Assembly (NCBI RefSeq): GCF_013346665.1
Contig: NZ_JABVBB010000038.1
Location: forward strand, 62,001-126,000
DNA from: Sulfitobacter maritimus
Lineage (GTDB): Bacteria > Pseudomonadota > Alphaproteobacteria > Rhodobacterales > Rhodobacteraceae
Length of the DNA stretch: 64,000 nucleotides
Direction of reading: 5' to 3'
The translations under genes and the position numbers were made by a program. Positions within the stretch are counted from its first letter, which is position 1. The number at the start of each line of letters is the position of its first letter. Shown here in pieces: positions 36,850 to 47,588 of the stretch. The notes beneath the pieces are model-generated. The model was not told where the DNA came from. It ran no database searches and saw nothing but the letters and a program-made list of their open reading frames with translations.

Positions 36850-37851
36850 TCACAGCGCCGCCAATGCGTCAGCCAGTCGGGCGCCACCTTGGCGGAAGGG
36901 ATCGACTGCGGGCAGGCCAAGCCGCTCTTCGACCTCGGCCAGATAGGCCTCAGCCTCGGCTTCGGACATGTGGTAGGTGTTGACCGAAATACCGACGACC
37001 TTGCAGTTGGGGTTCGGCACCTGCGCCAGCGTCAGCGCCATGTCACGCACCGCTTCCAAACTGGGCAAGGAGTATTCTGGCAGCCCGCGCATATGGGTCC
37101 GGGTCGGCTCGTGGCAGAGGATCAGCGCATCGGGCTGGCCGCCGTGGATCAGCGCCATGGTCACGCCGGAGTAGGAGACGTGGAACAGGCTGCCCTGCCC
37201 TTCGATAATGTCCCAGTGATCATCGTCATTGTCGGGCGTCAGATATTCCACCGCGCCCGCCATAAAGTCCGCAATCACCGCATCCAGCGGCACACCGTCA
37301 CCAGTGATCAGAATGCCGGTCTGGCCGGTGGCGCGGAAGGTGCTCTTCATGCCCTTTTCGCGCATCGCCTCATCTAGCGCGAGCGCCGTGTACATCTTGC
37401 CGACCGAGCAATCGGTGCCTACAGCCAAGACCCGCTTGCCGCTGCGCTTCTTGCCATCGGCAATCGGGTATTCAACACTGGGCACGCGCACGTCATGTAG
37501 GGTGGTGCCATTGGCTTTGGCAGCGGCCACCAGATCGGCCTCATCACGCAGCAGGTTGTGCAGGCCAGAGGCGATGTCGAAACCCATGTTCAGCGCCTCG
37601 ATCAGCACCTCTTTCCACGCCGCGCTGATCTTGCCGCCCCGATTGGCCACGCCGATGACCAATGTCTCTGCTCCGGCCTCGCGCGCTTCGGCCAATGTCA
37701 TGTCCTTCAGACCGAGGTCGGCCTTGCAGCCCTCCATGCGGAACTGGCCGACGGCATTGTCAGGCCGCCAGTCTTTGATGCCTTGGGCAACCTTGGCAGA
37801 AAGGGAGTCGGGCGCGTCACCCAGAAAGAGCAGATAGGGGGTTTTGATCAT
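36850..37851 (-). CDS. dgcN: DUF1611 protein, probable D-glutamate N-acetyltransferase (DgcN-like)
   Basis: This 333-residue protein has a P-loop (VLAVGTDCSVGKMYTALAL, about residues 144-162) and the DUF1611 fold. Members with an adjacent enolase-family racemase have been shown in marine proteobacteria to acetylate D-glutamate (DgcN), the first step of a D-glutamate catabolic route. This gene is followed directly by dgcA and a D-amino acid aminotransferase. It would initiate the operon, divergent from mcl1. Assignment is by operon context and family, not by motif alone. Confidence 0.82.
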   Translation of the reverse strand: MIKTPYLLFLGDAPDSLSAKVAQGIKDWRPDNAVGQFRMEGCKADLGLKDMTLAEAREAGAETLVIGVANRGGKISAAWKEVLIEALNMGFDIASGLHNLLRDEADLVAAAKANGTTLHDVRVPSVEYPIADGKKRSGKRVLAVGTDCSVGKMYTALALDEAMREKGMKSTFRATGQTGILITGDGVPLDAVIADFMAGAVEYLTPDNDDDHWDIIEGQGSLFHVSYSGVTMALIHGGQPDALILCHEPTRTHMRGLPEYSLPSLEAVRDMALTLAQVPNPNCKVVGISVNTYHMSEAEAEAYLAEVEERLGLPAVDPFRQGGARLADALAAL

Positions 37852-38015: not shown

Positions 38016-38054
38016 TGCTGCAACTGCGAAATCCGCTTGCGATTGGGGACGCAA
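38016..38054 (+). promoter_or_regulatory. Upstream region of mcl1 with a 15-bp sequence shared with mcd and a TTGCG dyad
   Basis: TGCTGCAACTGCGAA (38016-38030) recurs exactly before mcd (45854-45868), a gene of the same pathway. Just after it is TTGCG-(8 nt)-CGCAA (38037-38054). Both lie 55-95 bp before mcl1. This suggests a common regulator of the ethylmalonyl-CoA pathway, perhaps of the RamB/ScfR type. Confidence 0.55.
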
Positions 38055-38107
38055 TTTCCTACCAGAAAGCAGAACCCATATGAAACAATATTACCTATAG
38101 GTGCCCT

Positions 38108-39067
38108 ATGAGCTTCCGCATTCAGCCCGCCGCCCCTGCCCGCCCGAACCGCTGCCAATTGTTCGGCCCCGGCTCCCGCCCGGCGATTTTCGAGAAGATG
38201 GCAGCCTCGGATGCCGATGTGATTAACCTTGACCTTGAGGACAGCGTTGCACCGTCCGACAAAGACAGCGCGCGTGCCAATATTATCAAGGCGATTTCGG
38301 ACATCGACTGGGGCAACAAGACTCTTTCGGTGCGGATCAACGGGTTGGACACGCCCTACTGGTACCGTGATGTGGTGGAATTGCTGGAACAGGCCGGACC
38401 GCGGCTCGATCAGATTATGATTCCCAAAGTTGGCTGCGCCGCAGATGTCTATGCCGTGGATGCGCTGGTGACTGCCGTGGAGACCGCCAAGGGCCGCGAG
38501 AAGAAGATCAGCTTTGAAGTCATCATCGAATCCGCCGCCGGTATCGCCCATGTGGAAGAAATCGCCGCCTCCTCGCCGCGCTTGCAGGCGATGTCGCTCG
38601 GGGCTGCCGATTTTGCTGCGTCGATGGGCATGCAGACCACCGGCATCGGCGGCACGCAGGAAAACTATTACATGCAGCGCGGCGATCAGAAGCACTGGTC
38701 CGACCCCTGGCACTGGGCGCAGGCGGCAATCGTAGCGGCCTGCCGGACGCATGGGGTGCTGCCGGTTGACGGGCCATTCGGTGACTTCTCTGACGACGAA
38801 GGCTTCCGCGCGCAGGCGCGGCGCTCGGCGACACTGGGGATGGTAGGCAAGTGGGCGATCCACCCCAAACAGGTGGCGCTGAGCAATGAGGTATTCACCC
38901 CCTCTGAAGAAGCCGTGGCCGAAGCGCGTGAGATTCTGGCAGCGATGGAAGAGGCCAAGGCAAAGGGCGAGGGCGCGACCGTTTATAAGGGGCGTTTGGT
39001 GGATATTGCCAGTATTAAACAGGCTGAGGTGATTGTGCGGCAGTCTGAGATGATTGCCCAACGCTGA
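38108..39067 (+). CDS. mcl1: L-malyl-CoA / beta-methylmalyl-CoA lyase
   Basis: This CitE/HpcH-type C-C lyase has 319 residues starting [20 protein letters not shown]. The substrate arginine and magnesium ligands are in [21 protein letters not shown] and [17 protein letters not shown], and the C-terminal lid [15 protein letters not shown] is present. In Rhodobacter Mcl1 cleaves beta-methylmalyl-CoA to glyoxylate plus propionyl-CoA in acetate assimilation. Another pathway enzyme, Mcd, lies at 45906 with a shared upstream motif. Simple malyl-CoA lyase of the serine cycle is the alternative. Confidence 0.92.
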
Positions 39068-39083
39068 GCGCTTTTGGCAAGCC

Positions 39084-39119
39084 GCCGGGGGCGCTGCCCC
39101 CGGACCCCCGCGGGTATTT
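39084..39119. repeat. GC-rich intergenic palindrome of roseobacter type
   Basis: CCGGGGGCGCTGCCCCCGG (39084-39102) is followed by ACCCCCGCGGGTATTTAAAAAA. Very similar palindromes recur between genes in many Rhodobacteraceae genomes. Here it could also end mcl1 transcription. I see only this full copy in the window. Confidence 0.6.
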
Positions 39120-39222
39120 AAAAAAGGATGAAGGTGAAGAGGTGCTACGCGCCTTGGCCAAACCCGCGTTGCAAACCGGCGCGTTGCGCTCCATATACAC
39201 AGGCAACAAGCCGGAGCATGCA

Positions 39223-40185
39223 ATGACCCAATATCTGGATTTCGAAAAACCACTGGCCGAGATCGAAGGCAAGGCGGAAGAGCTGCGGGCGCTGGCCCGG
39301 TCCAACGAAGAGATGGACATCACCGCCGAGGCTCAGGCGCTGGACAAGAAAGCCGCCGTGATGCTGGAGGACCTTTATGGGTCGCTCACGCCTTGGCGCA
39401 AATGTCAGGTGGCGCGTCATCCGGAACGGCCGCATTGCAAAGACTATATCGAGGCGCTGTTTACCGAGTTCACGCCACTGGCGGGAGACCGGAACTTTGC
39501 CGACGACCATGCTGTTATGGGCGGCTTGGCGCGGTTCAATGACACGCCGGTGGTGGTGATTGGCCATGAGAAAGGCAATGACACCAAGAGCCGGATTGAG
39601 CGCAATTTTGGCATGGCGCGGCCTGAAGGTTATCGTAAGGCGGTGCGGTTGATGGAACTGGCGGATAAGTTCAATCTGCCGGTGGTGACCATTGTTGACA
39701 CGCCCGGCGCCTACCCCGGCAAGGGGGCCGAAGAGCGCGGACAGTCCGAGGCGATTGCGCGTTCGACGGAGAAATGTTTGCAGATCGGTGTGCCGCTTAT
39801 CAGCGTAATCGTTGGCGAAGGCGGGTCTGGCGGGGCGGTGGCTTTTGCCACGGCGAACCGTGTCGCGATGCTGGAACATTCGGTTTATTCGGTCATCACA
39901 CCCGAGGGCTGCGCGTCGATCCTGTGGAAAGACAGCGAGAAAATGCGCGAAGCTGCTGAGCAGATGCGTTTGACGGCGGATGAGCTTAAGACGCTTGGGG
40001 TGATTGATCAGATTATTCCGGAGCCCATGGGCGGCGCGCACCGTCATGCCGATGAGACGATCAAGGCCGTAGGCAAAGCGCTTGCCGACATGCTGAAAGA
40101 GCTGGACGGCAAAGGCGGCGAAGCGCTGATCAAAGACCGTCGCACCAAGTTTCTTGAAATGGGCCGCAAGGGGCTGGCGGCTTAA
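39223..40185 (+). CDS. accA: Acetyl-CoA carboxylase carboxyltransferase subunit alpha
   Basis: With AccD this subunit transfers carboxyl from biotin to acetyl-CoA, the first step of fatty acid synthesis. It has 320 residues from the ATG at 39223 ([21 protein letters not shown]). The crotonase-fold core is intact, including FPVVT-like [23 protein letters not shown] and [15 protein letters not shown]. The upstream frame extension is rejected. Its last bases overlap the stop of the convergent GNAT gene. Confidence 0.97.
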
Positions 40186-40628
40186 GCCAGCTTTGCCTTG
40201 AAGCGCGGATCGGGTGTGATCTGATCAAAGCCAGCGCGGCGGTAAAACGTCTGCACGCGCTGGTTGCGTGGATCTGTGCCGACCGTGACATAGGTACAGC
40301 CCCGCTGCTGTGCGTGATCCAGCGCGGCCTGCACCAATGCGCGCCCCAGACCTTTGCCTCGCGCTGTGTCGCAGACGAACAAATGGTGTAGATCCATCCC
40401 GCGTGCGCCGAATTGCAATTGCATTTGCGGGGTGAGTGCCGCATAGCCGCGCAGCCCTGTAGTGCCTTCGGCCACCAGCAATGTAATCCATGGGGCGGGG
40501 CCGAGGCTGTCGCGTTCGAGTGCTGCAAGCGTGAGCGTGGCCGTGTCGCCATGGTAGGCGGCCAGCGCATGGGCGAGGTCGAGAACCATTGGTAGGTCAG
40601 ATTTTTCAGCAGGGCGAATTACAGGCAT
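40182..40628 (-). CDS. GNAT family N-acetyltransferase
   Basis: This acetyl-CoA-dependent acyltransferase fold has 148 residues, starting [20 protein letters not shown] at 40628. Motif A is [24 protein letters not shown] (Q/RxxGxG pyrophosphate loop), and a C-terminal FYRRAGF follows. The acceptor is unknown. A GTG further upstream is less likely because GAAAGAGACGAC precedes the chosen ATG. Confidence 0.85.
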
Positions 40629-40921
40629 GTCGTCTCTTTCTGTGATCACCACAGGGAGACAAGCAAAGCCGCGCTGTGGCGGCTTGTGGATATGGAAATG
40701 GTGCCGCGCCGGTTAGGAGCGGGGGTAATAGACTGTTGTGAAGCAGATCATTTCCATGAAGCGTAGATGCGCCTCTGCCGCGCGCCTGTCAAGCGCCGCT
40801 TTCGTGAGCGGCTGTGATTTGCAAACGGCCCCCACGGACCCGATATTTGTAGTACAGGGCGTCTGCGACACCCCTGTGCCGCCCGACTGCCCTTTTTCGT
40901 CACCGTACAAGGGAGTCTGTC
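40629..40921. other. Gap of about 290 bp with a hairpin, no supported gene
   Basis: GCCGCT-TTCGTG-AGCGGC (40795-40812) is a stable hairpin. A GTG-started frame of 63 codons (40738-40929) overlaps the next start and lacks a clear SD; I do not accept it as a gene. The hairpin may belong to the leader of the following gene. Confidence 0.4.
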
Positions 40922-41227
40922 ATGTATAAACGTATCCTCACTGCCGCCCTGCTCTTTGGCATGGCCTGCACCGGGCCACCGGCTTGGGCACAAGCCTGCG
41001 CCCCGCGCGCGGCGCTCACCGCAAAATTGGAAGCCGCCTATGGCGAGACCCTTTCGGCGCGGGGGCTTCAAAACCCGACCGCGCTGATCGAAGTCTTTGC
41101 TTCTGCTGAAAGCGGCAGCTTCACCGTCTTGATGAGCCGGCCCGATGGCATCAGTTGCATCCTATCCACTGGCACGCATTGGATGGTCGAACCGGCCCCA
41201 CCGCGCAAGAAGGGCGCGGCAAGTTGA
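40922..41227 (+). CDS. Small secreted protein of unknown function
   Basis: This 101-residue protein has a clear signal peptide (MYKRILTAALLFGMACTG, with AWAQA|C cleavage near residue 24). The mature part of about 77 residues has two cysteines (in ACAPRAALT and ISCILSTGTHW) that could form a disulfide, and the end GTHWMVEPAPPRKKG is seen in many Rhodobacteraceae hypotheticals. It is probably periplasmic. I do not know the function. An upstream SD-like AAGGGAG lies at good distance. Confidence 0.75.
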   Translation: MYKRILTAALLFGMACTGPPAWAQACAPRAALTAKLEAAYGETLSARGLQNPTALIEVFASAESGSFTVLMSRPDGISCILSTGTHWMVEPAPPRKKGAAS

Positions 41228-41242
41228 GCTTGGGATCGGCTG

Positions 41243-41893
41243 TTAACTCGCCAGCATCCGCAGGCCTTGGGTGACATCGGAGCGCACGGCCAGCCGCAGA
41301 CCGGGCTCGTCCCCGGCGCGGAGGGCCGCGATAATCAGCCGGTGGAAATGCGGTGGCTCCGTCCGCCGCAGGCGACCATAGAGCGCGCGCATCGTTGGCC
41401 CCATCTGAAGCCAAACTGTTTCAGCCATAGCCAGCATCGCGGGTGCCTGAGCGCGCAGGTAGAGCGTGCGGTGAAATTCGAGGTTGGTGCGGATGTAGCT
41501 AACCGCATCGCGATGTGCGACCGCTTCGGCGATATTGGTGTTGATTGTCTGCATCCGTTCGATCAGCGCCATATGGGCGCGCGGCAGGGCGCGTGAGGCC
41601 AATTCGACTTCTAACAGAGCCCGCAGCGCCGCCAATTCCTCAATCCGTTCGTTGCTTAACTCAGGCGTGGAGATGCGGCCTGAGGTCGACATGGTCAGCG
41701 CGCCTTCGGCTGCCAGACGCCGCACCGCTTCGCGGGCGGGGGTCATCGACACGTCGTATTCTCGCCCCACGCCGCGCAGGGTAAGCGCGTGGCCGGGGGG
41801 CAGATCGCCGTGCATGATACGCGAGCGCAACCCGCGATAAACGCGGTCATGGGCCAGCGGCGTGGCCTCAACGGGGCGGGGGCTTAGGTTCAT
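41243..41893 (-). CDS. GntR family transcriptional regulator (FCD type)
   Basis: This 216-residue regulator has an N-terminal winged helix (DRVYRGLRSRIMHGDLPPGHALTLRG, then DVSMTPAREAVRRLAAEGAL) and a C-terminal FCD all-helical ligand domain, with metal-ligand-type histidine in FHRTLYLRAQ and FHRLIIAALRAGDE. The ligand is unknown; FCD proteins usually sense carboxylic acids. No adjacent catabolic operon is divergent from it, so the target may be elsewhere. Confidence 0.9.
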   Translation of the reverse strand: MNLSPRPVEATPLAHDRVYRGLRSRIMHGDLPPGHALTLRGVGREYDVSMTPAREAVRRLAAEGALTMSTSGRISTPELSNERIEELAALRALLEVELASRALPRAHMALIERMQTINTNIAEAVAHRDAVSYIRTNLEFHRTLYLRAQAPAMLAMAETVWLQMGPTMRALYGRLRRTEPPHFHRLIIAALRAGDEPGLRLAVRSDVTQGLRMLAS

Positions 41894-42018
41894 AGGAGGG
41901 TTGTGATCACAAGCCGCTCCAAGGTCAAGCGCGGGGTTTTAGGCGACGGGCGAAACAGCCGTTGCCCTACGCCGCGCTGCGCTCTATCGGGGGGCCAAAT
42001 CGTTATAGGAGCCGCACC

Positions 42019-42312
42019 GTGAGCCAACGAAACTTCATTCGCCATGTGGTCTTTTTCTCTGCCAAGGACCCGAAAGACATTCCTGCGATCGTAGCGGGGC
42101 TTTGGAAACTCGCCGATATCCCTTATTCGACGACCTTCGAGATTTGCGAAAACACCCGCGTCGACGCGCTTTCAGGCGATGTGGATGTGGTGGTCTATGC
42201 CGAGTTCCCCGATGCCGAGGCGCTCGCCGCATATAAGGCGCATCCGATTTACCAAGAGGCCATCGATATCGTGCGGCCTTTGCGCGATATGCGTGTGCCT
42301 GCGGATTTTTAA
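42019..42312 (+). CDS. Dabb (stress-responsive A/B barrel) domain protein
   Basis: This small dimeric ferredoxin-like barrel of about 97 residues has the GTG start at 42019 (after AGGAG) giving MSQRNFIRHVVFFSAKD. The HVVFF strand with VYAEFPDAEALAAYKAHPIYQE is the family signature. Some members are enzymes (olivetolic acid cyclase-like) and others respond to salt stress; no specific role is visible. It lies eight bases before pabB, so it may be cotranscribed. Confidence 0.88.
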   Translation: MSQRNFIRHVVFFSAKDPKDIPAIVAGLWKLADIPYSTTFEICENTRVDALSGDVDVVVYAEFPDAEALAAYKAHPIYQEAIDIVRPLRDMRVPADF

Positions 42313-42320
42313 GTCGCGCT

Positions 42321-43451
42321 ATGGCTGGCCATTGCGTTCTTTTTGACACTGGCCCGCTGGGGCGTGGCACGGGATTTCGCGCGCCACAGCGGATCATCAG
42401 CGCAGCAACCCCGGCGGAGGTGCCGGCAGCCTTTGCGGCGCTTGAGGCGGCGCAGGCGAGTGGTGCTTGGCTGGCGGGGTATGCGAGTTATGAGTTGGGC
42501 TACCTCGGCTCTCGTAAGCTGTGCGATCTAATGCCTGCTGAACGTGGCCTACCCTTGCTGCATTTCGGGGTGTTTGATGCCCCTCAAGCGCATCGTTTCG
42601 AGGACGCAGCGGGGGATGCAAGCCTGTCTGACCTTACCCCGGATTGGGATTTCGCCCAATATGAAGCCGCCTTTGCGCAGGTGCAGGATTTCATCACGGC
42701 CGGTGACATTTATCAGGCCAATCTGACCTTTGGGATGGAGGGCCGCCATACCGGCACGCCCGCCGCGCTTTACGCCCGGTTGCGCCAGCGTCAGAAGGTG
42801 GAACATGGCGCCTTTGTTGATTTGGGCGGCCCAGTGCTACTCTCGCGCTCGCCTGAGTTGTTCTTTGCGCTGTCGGCCGACGGACATCTAACCGCGCGCC
42901 CGATGAAAGGCACGGCACGGCGCGGGCTGGATGCTGTCGAAGATGCCGAACTGCGTGCCGAACTCGCTGCCTCGGAAAAGAACATGGCCGAGAACCTGAT
43001 GATCGTGGATCTGCTGCGCAACGACATCAGCCGGATCGCTGAACTTGGCAGTGTTAAAGTGCCGGAGCTTTTCGAGATCGAAACCTATGAGACGCTGCAT
43101 CAAATGACCTCGCGCGTCACGGCGCAGATCTTGCCGGGCAAGCGTCTGGCCGACATCTTTCATGCGCTTTTCCCCTGTGGGTCGATCACCGGTGCGCCCA
43201 AAATCCGCGCCATGCAGATTCTGCGCGCGCTAGAGCTCGCCCCACGCGATGCCTATTGCGGCGCGGTGGGCTGGATTGCGCCCTCTGGTGCGATGCAGTT
43301 CAACGTGGCGATCCGCACGGCGACCTGCCATGCCGATGGGCGGCTGCGGCTAAATGTTGGTGGTGGCGTGGTGCATGACAGCACAGCTGAGGATGAATAT
43401 GCTGAAGCGCTGCTGAAAGCACGTTTCGCAACCCTGCCTCAAAACCGATAG
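42321..43451 (+). CDS. pabB: Aminodeoxychorismate synthase component I
   Basis: With a glutamine amidotransferase it makes 4-amino-4-deoxychorismate for folate. The 376-residue form has a short N-terminal part and a complete chorismate-binding domain: RPMKGTARRG, ENLMIVDLLRNDISRIAELG and FPCGSITGAPKIRAMQIL. The lysine in the MKGT segment is the ADCS/anthranilate synthase discriminator. pabC and pabA are not in this window. The gene ends inside the opposite-strand SprT-like gene by 13 bp. Confidence 0.92.
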   Translation: MAGHCVLFDTGPLGRGTGFRAPQRIISAATPAEVPAAFAALEAAQASGAWLAGYASYELGYLGSRKLCDLMPAERGLPLLHFGVFDAPQAHRFEDAAGDASLSDLTPDWDFAQYEAAFAQVQDFITAGDIYQANLTFGMEGRHTGTPAALYARLRQRQKVEHGAFVDLGGPVLLSRSPELFFALSADGHLTARPMKGTARRGLDAVEDAELRAELAASEKNMAENLMIVDLLRNDISRIAELGSVKVPELFEIETYETLHQMTSRVTAQILPGKRLADIFHALFPCGSITGAPKIRAMQILRALELAPRDAYCGAVGWIAPSGAMQFNVAIRTATCHADGRLRLNVGGGVVHDSTAEDEYAEALLKARFATLPQNR

Positions 43452-44125
43452 CGGTGCAGCCCGCCACCGTGGTCACGCAGCCATTGGCGGGGGGCTTGAT
43501 AATCACCGTAAATCCGCGTGACTTCGGCCCAGAAGGCAGGCGAGTGGTTCATCTGCGCCAGATGCGCGACCTCATGTGCGGCAACGTAATTGAGCACCTC
43601 CGGTGGGGTCATGATCAGCCGCCAAGAGAACATCAGCCCGCCGTCGCTGGTGCAAGACCCCCAGCGAGACCGCGTGTCGCGCAGGGTGAGGCGGTGGTAG
43701 GGGCGGCCCAGCCGTTCGGCATAGTCATCACAAGCCCCCGCGAGCCTGTCTCGGGCCACTTCCCGCAGATGCGCGGCCAAACGTTTGCCGATGCTCTCTT
43801 CAGCCCCCGGCACAGTGATTTCGGCCTCCCCGATCCGCACGCCGCGCCCCTGCCCTGCGGTAACACGCAGCATCTTACCGCCGACCGGAATCTCCGCACC
43901 GGGGGCGACGACGACATCCGCGCCGCGGGCGGCAAGATGCTGGCGAATCCAGTCTTCCTTAGCTTCGGCAAAGTCCAAAGCCTCGCGCTTGGCCAGCCGT
44001 TTGGGCATGGTCAGCGTGACCCGTCCGTCCAACTGCGAGATTCGCAACGAGATGCGCCGCGCACGCGCTGAACGGCGCAGAGTGAGGGGAATCGGCGGGT
44101 TGCCGGGCAGCACATGGTCTTTCAT
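43439..44125 (-). CDS. SprT/YgjP-like zinc metalloprotease
   Basis: This 228-residue protein has the DUF45 architecture. The zinc motif HEVAHLAQMNHSPAFW provides HExxH and a downstream histidine, and WGSCTSDGGLMFSWRLIMTPP precedes it. YgjP-like proteins are presumed zinc proteases of unknown target. There is no signal peptide. The nearest upstream gene on the opposite strand is the TIGR02300 protein, so this unit is probably monocistronic. Confidence 0.9.
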   Translation of the reverse strand: MKDHVLPGNPPIPLTLRRSARARRISLRISQLDGRVTLTMPKRLAKREALDFAEAKEDWIRQHLAARGADVVVAPGAEIPVGGKMLRVTAGQGRGVRIGEAEITVPGAEESIGKRLAAHLREVARDRLAGACDDYAERLGRPYHRLTLRDTRSRWGSCTSDGGLMFSWRLIMTPPEVLNYVAAHEVAHLAQMNHSPAFWAEVTRIYGDYQAPRQWLRDHGGGLHRYRF

Positions 44126-44236
44126 TACCGGGGCAACGTCCCTAGATAGAGGCCAAAGCCTTTGACAGTGCCCCCCTCATATGGCACTTGGCCGGAATCA
44201 TCTACACGCAACAGCAATATTATAAAGGGGTGTTTC

Positions 44237-44566
44237 ATGCCCAACGAAGAATGGGGAACCAAGCGCCTGTGCCCCACTACGGGCAAGCGCTTCTATGACC
44301 TCAACAAAAATCCGATCATCAGCCCCTACACGGGCGAAGAGGTCGAGGTCGACAACGCCAAGTCGCGCATGATTGCGGCGGATGCCGAGGATGCGGTCAC
44401 AGCAAAAGCCAAGAAGGGCGACAAAGTTGACGACGAGTCGCTCGTCGATGACGATGATGCCGTAGACGTTGATCTGGACGATGATCTGCTGGACGACGAT
44501 GACGACGACACGGATACTGTCCCGCTCGACGATCTGGCCGAAGTCGCCACAGACGACGAAGATTAA
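44237..44566 (+). CDS. TIGR02300 family acidic protein
   Basis: This 109-residue product has an N-terminal zinc-like segment WGTKRLCPTTGKRFYDLNKNPIISPYT, conserved across alphaproteobacteria (TIGR02300). A low-complexity acidic tail follows, with long runs of aspartate (DDDAVDVDLDDDLLDDD and DDDDTDTV). The family sometimes lies upstream of tRNA genes, as here (tRNA-Ala 94 bp later). The function is unknown. The ATG at 44237 follows AAAGGGGTG. Confidence 0.85.
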   Translation: MPNEEWGTKRLCPTTGKRFYDLNKNPIISPYTGEEVEVDNAKSRMIAADAEDAVTAKAKKGDKVDDESLVDDDDAVDVDLDDDLLDDDDDDTDTVPLDDLAEVATDDED

Positions 44567-44659
44567 TTAATCGGCGGCGGGGTCAATTTTCCGCTTGATC
44601 CCGCCTCCACCAGCGCCTAGACAGCGGCGCATGACGACCCGGATCGCACGATCCACGAT

Positions 44660-44735
44660 GGGGCCTTAGCTCAGCTGGGAGAGCGCCTGCATGGCATGCA
44701 GGAGGTCAGCGGTTCGATCCCGCTAGGCTCCACCA
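44660..44735 (+). tRNA. tRNA-Ala (GGC anticodon), CCA encoded
   Basis: Cloverleaf: acceptor GGGGCCT pairs with AGGCTCC (one G-T). The D arm is AGCTCAGCTGGGAGAGC. The anticodon stem is CCTGC/GCAGG with loop ATGGCAT (anticodon GGC). The T arm is AGCGG-TTCGATC-CCGCT. The discriminator A is followed by CCA. The length is 76 nt. Its 3' half is duplicated at 44817-44846. Confidence 0.95.
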
Positions 44736-44816
44736 TCACCACTCCTTCGCAAATTCAGATATGGCTCGCCCGTTAATGGGGCTGACTGACGCGCATCCGC
44801 TTCGCGGCTACTCTGA

Positions 44817-44846
44817 GTCAGCGGTTCGATCCCGCTAGGCTCCACC
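44817..44846 (+). repeat. Copy of the tRNA-Ala 3' end (attachment-site-like direct repeat)
   Basis: These 30 bp (GTCAGCGGTTCGATCCCGCT, then AGGCTCCACC) repeat 44705-44734 exactly, 112 bp downstream. They contain the T arm and acceptor end but no rest of a tRNA. Such repeats flank elements that integrate at tRNA 3' ends. The 82 bp between the copies carry no gene. About 150 bp follow to the TauE gene without a feature beyond a small ACCGC/GCGGT hairpin. Confidence 0.85.
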
Positions 44847-44997
44847 CAACGCCTTACTAGCTTTAACGGTCGGCAACCGCGTTGAAAAAGCGGTGAGGGA
44901 GGCAGCGCCCCACAATCGGCTCAACGCTATCTGGTGGCTACAAAGACGCCTTGCGCCTGCAATCAAGGTCCGGTGCCTAAGGCCTGATTCCCGATCT

Positions 44998-45762
44998 TTA
45001 AAACACCGCCCGGCGAATCAAGTTCAGTCCCGCGACCAGCAGCACCACCAAGGTCATCTTTCGAAACAGCACCGGATCGACCCGGTCCATCACCTTGCCG
45101 CCGAGCCACACCCCAAGCATCACCGGGGCGAGCAGCAGCGCAGAGAACGGCCATGTTTGCGCATTGAGCACCCCCGACCCCACATGCGCGCCGAGCAGCG
45201 CCACAGCACCCAACCCGTAGATCACCCCCTGTATGCGCATTTGGTCGTGCTTATCTGTGCCGAGCGCGGTCAGATAGGCCACTGTTGGCGGCCCCCAGAC
45301 ACCCGACATACCGCCAATCGCTCCGGCAAAACTGCCCACTGCGGCCTCCACCCGCGCGGAGCGGCGGGGCAGGTGGAATTTGTATTTCGACAGTTGCAGC
45401 AAGGTGAAAAACACCACCGGGCCACCGATCAGCAAGAGCAGGGTCGATTGCGGCACTGATTGCACCAGCTGCGCTGTGATCGTCATAGCGACCGCGCCGA
45501 ACAGCAGGAAAATCCAGAACAAGCGAATGGTCCGCAGCGCCGCCTTTGGCCCCTGCCGCAACGCTTGAAACGCATTTGCCAAGACAGTGGGCAGGATCAA
45601 ACCAGCAAGCGCCAGTTCCGGCGCCATAAAGGTGGTCAGCCCGGAAATTAAGATAAGCGGCAACGCAAAGCCGACCACGCCTTTAACGAATCCGGCACAG
45701 AGCCCAATGACCAATGCGGCGTAAAACTCGAACGGGGTGAGAAAGGGGAAAATACTGTCCAT
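44998..45762 (-). CDS. TauE/SafE family sulfite/organic anion exporter
   Basis: This protein of about 254 residues has seven to eight transmembrane helices. It shows the duplicated family motif in ALVIGLCAGFVKGVVGFALPLIL and VGSFAGAIGGMSGVWGPPTVAYLTALG. Members export sulfite or other small anions; the substrate here is unknown. In roseobacters that oxidise sulfonates or DMSP, sulfite export is plausible, but no sulfur genes are adjacent. The ATG at 45762 fits the first helix; the frame's further upstream part covers the mcd promoter. Confidence 0.87.
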   Translation of the reverse strand: MDSIFPFLTPFEFYAALVIGLCAGFVKGVVGFALPLILISGLTTFMAPELALAGLILPTVLANAFQALRQGPKAALRTIRLFWIFLLFGAVAMTITAQLVQSVPQSTLLLLIGGPVVFFTLLQLSKYKFHLPRRSARVEAAVGSFAGAIGGMSGVWGPPTVAYLTALGTDKHDQMRIQGVIYGLGAVALLGAHVGSGVLNAQTWPFSALLLAPVMLGVWLGGKVMDRVDPVLFRKMTLVVLLVAGLNLIRRAVF

Positions 45763-45853
45763 GCCGCTACATAGCAGGCTATTTCGCCGCTGCACGACGA
45801 AAATCACCACGCAAGAATAGAACAAAACGCCGCAGCGAAACGTATCTTTGTTG

Positions 45854-45868
45854 TGCTGCAACTGCGAA
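45854..45868 (+). promoter_or_regulatory. 15-bp sequence shared with the mcl1 upstream region
   Basis: TGCTGCAACTGCGAA lies 37 bp before the mcd start, in the gap between mcd and the TauE gene. It is identical to 38016-38030 before mcl1. Read on the other strand it is two near-repeats, TTCGCAG and TTGCAGC. It is a possible binding site of a common regulator. Confidence 0.55.
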
Positions 45869-45905
45869 GGCGCTATGTCTGCCTGCAAGCAAGAAAGGAC
45901 AGCCC

Positions 45906-47588
45906 ATGGCACATGACGGTCAGGACATGATGATGCAAAGCGTAATTCTCGACGATCTGACGGGGCTGACCGGCGCAGCCCTTCCGCCGCTAGACCGGCT
46001 GCTCGATACCGCCATCGCCGCCGTGCGCGCTCAGGTGAGCGATGGCGACCGCGTATCGGCCAAGTTAATTGAGGCTAACCAAACAGCAGCGCATGGCCTT
46101 GCCTGGCTCGCCACCTATGTGCAGGCGCTGCGCCAGATGCAGCTTTGGGCCGAACGCTTGCAGGAGGACGGACGCTTTGGCGAAGTGGAGCAATTGCTGC
46201 ACCAGATCGCTTTTGGCGAATACCTCTGCCAGATCAGCGGCGGCATTCAGATGAACCAAGGCGAAATGCTGCGCCTGCAAGATTTGGGGTTGAGCGCCGA
46301 AGATAGCGCTGCGCTGGATAACCCAGCCATCACTACCCTGACCCGCTCTGGCAACACGCAGGCCGCGCGCAGCCGTTTGGTCGAACTGATGCAGGAACGC
46401 AATGCCGACGTCACCTTTGGCGTCAGTGGTCTGGATGAAGAGCTTGAGATGATCCGCGACCAATTCCGCCGCTACGCGGTGGAGAAGGTCGAACCCTACG
46501 CCCATGACTGGCACCTTAAGGATGAATTGATCCCGATGGAGGTGATCGAGGAACTGGCCGAAATGGGTGTCTTCGGCCTGACCATCCCCGAGGAATACGG
46601 CGGGCTGGGCCTGACCAAAGCCTCAATGTGCGTGGTCAGCGAGGAACTGTCGCGCGGCTATATCGGGGTCGGCTCGCTCGGCACCCGGTCTGAGATCGCG
46701 GCGGAACTGATCCTCTGTGGCGGCACCGACGCCCAGAAAGAGAAATGGCTCCCCCGCATCGCCAGCGCCGAAACCTTGCCCACGGCGGTCTTTACCGAGC
46801 CGAACACTGGCTCTGACCTTGGCAGCCTGCGCACACGCGCGGTGAAGGACGGGGACGATTACAAGGTGACTGGCAACAAGACATGGATCACCCATGCCGC
46901 CCGCACCCATGTGATGACCCTGCTGGCGCGCACCGACCCTGAGACCACCGACCACCGGGGCCTGTCGATGTTTCTGGCCGAAAAGACCCCCGGCGACAAC
47001 GCCACCCCCTTCCCCACCCCCGGCATGACCGGCGGGGAGATCGAGGTTCTGGGCTATCGCGGCATGAAGGAATATGAGCTTGGTTTCGATGGCTTCGAGG
47101 TGAAAGGTGAGAACCTTCTGGGCGGCGAAGAGGGGCGCGGCTTTAAACAGTTGATGGAGACATTCGAGTCCGCCCGCATCCAGACCGCCGCCCGCGCCAT
47201 CGGCGTGGCGCAATCGGCGCTGGATATCTCGATGCAATACGCACAAGACCGCAAGCAATTCGGCAAAGCGCTCATCAACTTCCCCCGCGTGTCGGGCAAG
47301 CTGGCGATGATGGCGGTGGAACTGATGGTAGCGCGGCAGCTGACCTACTACAGCGCCTTTGAGAAAGACGCCGGACGCCGCTGCGACGTAGAAGCGGGCA
47401 TGGCGAAACTGCTCGGTGCGCGGGTCGCTTGGGCGGCGGCGGATAATGGCCTACAAATCCACGGCGGCAACGGCTTTGCGCTGGAGTATAAGATCAGCCG
47501 GGTGCTTTGCGATGCCCGAATTCTCAACATCTTTGAGGGCGCAGCGGAGATCCAAGCGCAGGTCATCGCGCGGCGTTTGCTTGGCTAA
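45906..47588 (+). CDS. mcd: (2S)-methylsuccinyl-CoA dehydrogenase
   Basis: This FAD enzyme oxidises (2S)-methylsuccinyl-CoA to mesaconyl-CoA in the ethylmalonyl-CoA pathway. At 560 residues it is longer than common acyl-CoA dehydrogenases because of an N-terminal extension of about 160 residues, a hallmark of Mcd. The core has AVFTEPNTGSDLGSLRTRAVK, the catalytic glutamate region near FEGAAEIQAQVIARRLLG and the flavin contact ITHAARTHVM. AAGAAAGGAC precedes the ATG. mcl1, a later enzyme of the route, lies 7 kb away with the same upstream 15-mer. Confidence 0.92.
   Translation: MAHDGQDMMMQSVILDDLTGLTGAALPPLDRLLDTAIAAVRAQVSDGDRVSAKLIEANQTAAHGLAWLATYVQALRQMQLWAERLQEDGRFGEVEQLLHQIAFGEYLCQISGGIQMNQGEMLRLQDLGLSAEDSAALDNPAITTLTRSGNTQAARSRLVELMQERNADVTFGVSGLDEELEMIRDQFRRYAVEKVEPYAHDWHLKDELIPMEVIEELAEMGVFGLTIPEEYGGLGLTKASMCVVSEELSRGYIGVGSLGTRSEIAAELILCGGTDAQKEKWLPRIASAETLPTAVFTEPNTGSDLGSLRTRAVKDGDDYKVTGNKTWITHAARTHVMTLLARTDPETTDHRGLSMFLAEKTPGDNATPFPTPGMTGGEIEVLGYRGMKEYELGFDGFEVKGENLLGGEEGRGFKQLMETFESARIQTAARAIGVAQSALDISMQYAQDRKQFGKALINFPRVSGKLAMMAVELMVARQLTYYSAFEKDAGRRCDVEAGMAKLLGARVAWAAADNGLQIHGGNGFALEYKISRVLCDARILNIFEGAAEIQAQVIARRLLG

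Follow-up and report, generated by a model that had tools for sequence, protein, structure and literature searches.

Do two genes of the ethylmalonyl-CoA (EMC) pathway answer to one regulator in Sulfitobacter maritimus? The question is raised by a stretch of 64,000 nucleotides of its genome (contig NZ_JABVBB010000038.1, positions 62,001 to 126,000; hereafter the window), in which the same 15-mer, TGCTGCAACTGCGAA, precedes two genes that we take, from homology, to be mcl1 and mcd. The 15-mer lies at 38016-38030 and 45854-45868 on the plus strand, its only two exact copies in the window and in the whole source genome (3.785 Mb). It starts 92 bp upstream of the mcl1 ATG (38108) and 52 bp upstream of the mcd ATG (45906), in both cases on the strand of the gene, as the first-pass annotation had described. 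Judged by its conservation among genomes, the 15-mer belongs to a real operator, X (YKCTGCRNNTGCRAAR), that recurs across the family Rhodobacteraceae. The most likely protein to bind X is PhaR, a repressor that attaches to granules of polyhydroxybutyrate (PHB).

A conserved operator before two genes

The exact 15-mer was rejected as a genome-wide marker, being both too strict and too weak, and a matrix was used instead. With up to two mismatches it has 15 matches in its own genome, against 9 for the reversed pattern. The first-pass annotation had named a lack of conservation in related genomes as refuting; conservation was found before both mcl1 and mcd, and it is this that lifts the 15-mer above chance. 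A degenerate scan with one mismatch gave 83 matches against 31 for the control, with most of the contexts viewed inside predicted open reading frames (ORFs). One one-mismatch copy of the 15-mer (L003:1501; C16:44478 of the own genome) lies near an ArsR/arsenate-reductase fusion gene, with no pathway link seen.

The comparison covered the best 80 of 568 mcl1 relatives and 59 mcd loci, the closest 30 of which formed a first set and 20 of the remaining 29 entered a second; outside both sets, genomes G003 and G033 were viewed separately and 7 of the 59 were left out. The X matrix was trained on mcl1 and mcd promoters and used with a score threshold of 8. Second, weaker mcl1 paralogues were left out of the counts. 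Synteny was considered as the origin of the shared mcd sites and rejected, as no mcd homologue above 60% identity was found within up to 10 kb on each side of the 80 mcl1 relatives, where only two weak acyl-CoA dehydrogenase matches (34%) occur; the mcd loci were therefore collected separately.

In most mcl1 relatives an X-related site precedes a CTTGC and lies at about -88 to -100. The matrix exceeds its threshold in 30/30 mcd and 76/81 mcl1 promoters (0 and 1, respectively, in one shuffle each). Among promoters outside the training data, in genomes that encode PhaR, X is found in 34/39 at mcd and 16/19 at mcl1. At mcd it lies within 90 bp of the start, on the opposite strand in 7 of the 34 second-set positives, and the two sets together give 64 of 69 PhaR-positive genomes. 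The pooled mcl1 promoters hold X at its usual position in 92 of 100, a count that leaves out four promoters from genomes where PhaR was undetected and takes no account of the PhaR status of the 80 named relatives. Six more PhaR-positive genomes, chosen as divergent, have X at mcl1 in 3/6, on the opposite strand.

The half-sites point to PhaR

In X, two YGCR half-sites face each other as an inverted repeat around two central bases (core TGCR-NN-TGCR, spacing N4). The two inverted YGCR half-sites of the PhaR operator are thus present in X. Maehara and colleagues reportedly also allowed N4 in Paracoccus denitrificans. Published PhaR sites share these half-sites but have one central base (N3): CTGCNNNGCAG in R. 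sphaeroides and WNWD2NYGCRNYGCRNH2WNW in S. meliloti (both PMC12542648), and TGCRNYGCASMA in B. diazoefficiens (PMC6201568). For P. denitrificans, a repeated TGC is reported (PMC10888616). No solved PhaR structure was found at E values up to 0.001.

A half-site matrix was built from 16 S. meliloti operators whose promoters are listed as bound with high efficiency; four exoH sites were left out. The published sites themselves score a median of 22.9 (minimum 16.8). The mcl1 promoters reach a median of 16.2 at N4 and at most 3.2 at nine other spacings. Scores at ccr are 12.3 at N3, and those at mcd are 10.4 at N3, 12.0 at N4 and 15.0 at N9, the last arising from three consecutive half-sites. An N3 palindrome overlaps the N4 one in 27/30 mcd promoters of the first set, the own genome not being among them. 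The mcd promoters of relatives also contain TTTGTTGCGCTGCAC, a segment of the phaZ operator of S. meliloti, which PhaR binds efficiently (PMC12542648).

N3 palindromes occur in other promoters of the same pathway. At ecm, one stands immediately before a TTGAC in 12/12 usable promoters (the own one and 11 of 20 fetched, after eight partial matches without a start and one with a mis-set start were left out); at ccr, one lies within the last 110 bp in 26/30. Of the 100 mcl1 promoters, eight lack X. An N3 site falls within the equivalent 70 bp in five of these eight (0.69 expected), and in four it occupies the position of X itself.

Presence and natural loss of PhaR

The own genome encodes PhaR (TIGR01848 above cut-off; L096:10982-11527) within a phaZ-phaC-phaP region, and PhaR (PF07879) is found in 385/395 Rhodobacteraceae genomes. 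The 10 genomes in which it was undetected include 7 with mcd and 4 with mcl1. X at mcd is present in 1/7 of these against 34/39 PhaR-positive genomes (Fisher p 3e-4), and at mcl1 in 1/4 against 16/19 (Fisher p 0.04). In the six PhaR-less genomes without X at mcd, the phaC match is absent as well. The mcd promoters of G003 and G358 retain GTATTTTTGTTGCGC and CTATGCC at the same distance, with the X span replaced; their mcl1 genes also lack X, and the ccr promoter of G003 has neither N3 nor N4. In G033 (74% complete, PhaR not found), mcl1 lacks X and none was seen by eye at mcd or ccr. Three lines of evidence make PhaR the probable reader of X: the half-sites of X, the occurrence of N3 sites within the pathway, and the disappearance of X along with PhaR and phaC.

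As a separate observation, the mcd match of G003 (C1:3246592-3248226) contains one internal TAA.

X before other genes

Across 30 genomes the X pattern has 231 matches against 22 for the reversed control, a 10.5-fold excess; G003 has 1, and the other 29 genomes average 7.9. Contexts were viewed for 70 loci among the matches listed, 40 of them from six genomes (known mcd matches omitted), plus six own loci. In this untargeted scan of the matches listed, the same-strand downstream genes include mcd in 6 genomes, mcl1 in 2 and an mch-like gene in 2. A MaoC-type enoyl-CoA hydratase gene follows X in five genomes (G000, G053, G009, G005 and G041) among the matches listed. The name of the mch-like gene (L243, L248) rests on its sequence and, for L243, on a dehydratase domain (PF13452); it has no NCBIfam match.

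X also stands 34-39 bp upstream of the phaC start in five of seven phaC genes (own genome, G055, G042, G049 and G018); G018 has no mcd or mcl1 match. Where the others have X, phaC of G009 has CTGCATGGCAG, the published form of the R. sphaeroides PhaR site (PMC12542648); in the seventh, that of G023, the start position is unclear. At ccr, 11/30 promoters of relatives exceed the matrix score of 8, and the own ccr has two X-like copies 21 bp apart, one scoring 9.9. The proposal of the first-pass annotation that EMC-pathway promoters share a regulator site is thereby supported: genomes across the Rhodobacteraceae have X upstream of mcl1 and mcd, and it also appears before ccr, the mch-like gene and phaC, with N3 relatives before ecm and ccr.

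Two further occurrences were noted. An X-like site lies 99 bp before pntA (transhydrogenase alpha, family confirmed) in G005 only (L193:1501), a plausible NADPH link to Ccr. In the own genome (C28; L183:2547-2568 and 2925-2946), a DUF1127-like small gene and an apbC-like gene (identified by eye) flank a pair of X-like sites, spaced 378 bp and followed by similar sequence, that could not be tied to the EMC pathway.

Weighing the alternatives

Several observations weigh against PhaR as the reader of X. The centre spacing of the PhaR consensus, N3 (CTGCNNNGCAG, YGCRNYGCR), is found at neither window site, both of which have an N4 centre and therefore depart from the strict consensus. X is missing at mcd in 5/39 PhaR-positive genomes: G001 has N3 nearby, G057 has N3 and a looser N4, G015 has a looser N4, and G190 and G029 have neither. 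It is missing at mcl1 in 3/19, among them G310, which lacks N3 as well, and in three of the divergent PhaR-positive genomes (G054, G017 and G059). Outside the Rhodobacteraceae, X precedes mcd in 0/28 genomes of the class. N3 occurs in the same stretch in 28/92 X-bearing mcl1 promoters and in 7/100 background windows, so that the replacement of N4 by N3 rests on few cases. Most X matches beyond the known targets fall inside predicted ORFs: of 69 distinct X sites in the contexts viewed, 22 lie outside ORFs as called by a crude gene caller. The placement of X relative to the promoter differs between genes. The genome G111 keeps X at mcd and mcl1 though PhaR was not found in it. Among the six PhaR-less genomes that lack X, four are AT-rich upstream of mcd (GC 0.29-0.33, against a mean of 0.56), which confounds the loss of X there, and G003 and G358 belong to one genus and represent one event; the independent losses are therefore few, and the Fisher values overstate the evidence. 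G111 (92% complete, 590 contigs) still has phaC, and a phaP preceded by two perfect N3 palindromes, so its PhaR is probably missing from the assembly, even though the contig runs on past phaP without phaR.

An operator of a separate, Rhodobacteraceae-specific EMC regulator with a PhaR-like half-site, which some lineages would have lost along with their PHB genes, would accommodate part of these observations: the N4 spacing maintained in 92/100 mcl1 promoters, the absence of X before mcd in the 28 genomes of the class outside the family, the asymmetric AAA tail of X, and the X sites of G111. We consider such a regulator unlikely: some mcl1 promoters, and the phaC promoter of G009, have an N3 PhaR site in place of X; ecm and ccr, which belong to the pathway too, are preceded by N3 sites; G018 has X before phaC but no mcd or mcl1 match; and in G003 both X and the N3 site of ccr have been lost. 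Still less probable is that X is a site of a RamB/ScfR-type acyl-CoA regulator, as the first-pass annotation had proposed. The ScfR/RamB-type box TTTGCAAA has an exact copy in 0/141 mcl1, mcd and ccr promoters. With one mismatch it occurs in 32/141 against 7 after shuffling, an excess to be expected from the TGCAAA with which X often ends; for a double box, allowing four mismatches at most, the counts are 6 and 0. A ramB deletion alters EMC gene expression in P. denitrificans, which speaks for a regulator of this kind, but the RamB boxes of that organism (oligonucleotide 46) are unlike X (PMC10370305).

The remaining reading treats X as part of the core promoter, or as a repeat arisen by chance, with no dedicated regulator; we regard it as the most improbable. 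It draws on the overlap of X with the putative -35 of mcd and on the bare repeat being statistically ordinary. The repeat on its own is indeed weak: the window contains 44 different 15-mers with more than one same-strand copy, where a third-order Markov model gives a mean of 8.6 and a maximum of 18 (20 runs). At mcl1, X lies upstream of the -35, a position different from that at mcd; G003 and G358 drop X yet keep the surrounding mcd elements; and the 10.5-fold excess over the reversed pattern is difficult to reconcile with chance. Binding by PhaR is therefore the reading that we prefer, as the probable one.

A possible PHB-dependent switch

PhaR is a phasin repressor that is sequestered by PHB (PMC12542648). 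We propose that it binds the N4 form as well, that it would repress the genes so marked, and that its titration induces the EMC pathway. Without PHB, PhaR would occupy the X and N3 sites and keep the EMC-pathway genes and phaC low. At mcd the site overlaps the putative -35 and ends before the -10, a placement that suggests repression. At mcl1 it lies just upstream of the putative -35, with X ending 5 bp before that element, and the ecm N3 site is similarly placed (elements assigned by eye); this arrangement may fit either sign. When acetyl-CoA is in excess, PHB granules would form and PhaR would be titrated onto them, so that the EMC genes rise together.

In its full form, the model would make the PHB granule the sensor and switch of the EMC pathway in Rhodobacteraceae, with PhaR repressing mcl1, mcd, ccr, ecm and mch through N3 and distinct N4 operators until nascent PHB titrates it, and with the storage polymer, not a soluble CoA ester, as the primary signal for acetate assimilation. 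We advance this wider model tentatively, as a possibility a little short of even. The portion of PMC6520949 that is accessible reports that PhaR takes part in acetyl-CoA partitioning in M. extorquens, and of EMC steps it names only phaA, phaB and a PhaA-like gene.

The mechanism of EMC upregulation was called enigmatic by Kremer et al. in 2023 (PMC10370305). Titration of PhaR by PHB would be an answer to the question of EMC induction that standard strains make testable, as it offers a named candidate with mapped sites. If true, one protein would tie acetate assimilation to the storage polymer, and the finding would be relevant to metabolic engineering based on PHB and the EMC pathway. In the literature, as judged mostly from titles and abstract openings and with few subscription journals covered, we found nothing on EMC genes of Rhodobacteraceae being controlled by PhaR.

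Architecture of the two promoters

The elements of the two window promoters are collected in Table 1. CTTGC, the core of the putative mcl1 -35, is common to most of the mcl1 promoters compared and is retained in the PhaR-less G003 and G358. Neither mcl1 nor mcd has an NCBIfam equivalog above cut-off.

Table 1. Features of the mcl1 and mcd promoters and genes (positions in the window).
Feature	Position	Strand	Basis
X site before mcl1 (TGCTGCAACTGCGAA), PhaR-like half-sites TGC-N4-GCR	38016..38030	+	exact match; X in 92/100 mcl1 promoters
Putative -35 of mcl1, CTTGCG, 5 bp past X	38036..38041	+	by eye
Y box 1 of mcl1 promoter (CGCAATTTCCTACC), overlaps putative -10	38050..38063	+	conservation
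Y box 2 of mcl1 promoter (TGAAACAATATTAC), 31 bp after box 1	38081..38094	+	conservation
mcl1, presumed beta-methylmalyl-CoA/L-malyl-CoA lyase, 319 aa	38108..39067	+	CitE/malyl-CoA lyase family matches below curated cut-offs
Y box 1 of mcd promoter (CGCAAGAATAGAAC)	45810..45823	+	conservation
Y box 2 of mcd promoter (CGTATCTTTGTTGT), 31 bp after box 1	45841..45854	+	conservation
Putative -35 of mcd, TTGTGC (most relatives TTGCGC)	45851..45856	+	by eye
X site before mcd; overlaps putative -35, stops short of -10	45854..45868	+	exact match; 30/30 and 34/39 PhaR-positive genomes
Putative -10 of mcd, TATGTC, 17 bp past putative -35	45874..45879	+	by eye
mcd, presumed methylsuccinyl-CoA dehydrogenase, 560 aa	45906..47588	+	acyl-CoA dehydrogenase family matches below curated cut-offs

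Besides X, the mcl1, mcd and ccr promoters share a second element, Y, composed of two 14-mers of the CGCAATTTAATACC type about 17 bp apart, which is less clear in ecm. Its information content is 25-32 bits against 7.5-9.0 in shuffles; adjacent gaps score almost equally, leaving the spacing unsettled. Y is partly retained, by eye, in the PhaR-less G003, and it might be of the ScfR type. With Y in the same promoters, PhaR would thus share control with at least one other input.

Divergent from mcl1 on the minus strand is the gene for DgcN (DUF1611; 36850-37851), and divergent from mcd that for a TauE/SafE permease (minus strand, 44998-45912); a similar-looking protein lies opposite mcd in four other genomes. 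An additional X-like match at 46264-46285 (score 19.1), within the mcd coding sequence, is probably due to chance.

Comparison with known systems

The RamB class 2 boxes of P. denitrificans (ScfR family) belong to an EMC-linked regulator in a related bacterium. Their sequences, TGACAAACCTTACA and TGACAATACTGACT with an 18-bp spacer, bear no likeness to X (PMC10370305). A pair of near-identical boxes is no feature of X itself; the layout of the RamB boxes resembles that of the separate two-box Y element. CcrR, a TetR family protein of Methylorubrum extorquens, regulates ccr, an EMC-pathway gene, which parallels the role proposed here for the regulator that would bind X.

The closest parallel is with the PhaR (AniA) operators of alphaproteobacteria. 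Like these, X has YGCR half-sites, is promoter-proximal and has phaC among its genes; N3 versions occur at ecm, ccr and most mcd, and at mcd the site is missing from genomes that lack both PhaR and phaC. X differs from them in its two central bases (N4) at mcl1, phaC, the mch-like gene and the own mcd, and in its targets, EMC genes that do not appear among the PhaR targets in the portions of those papers available.

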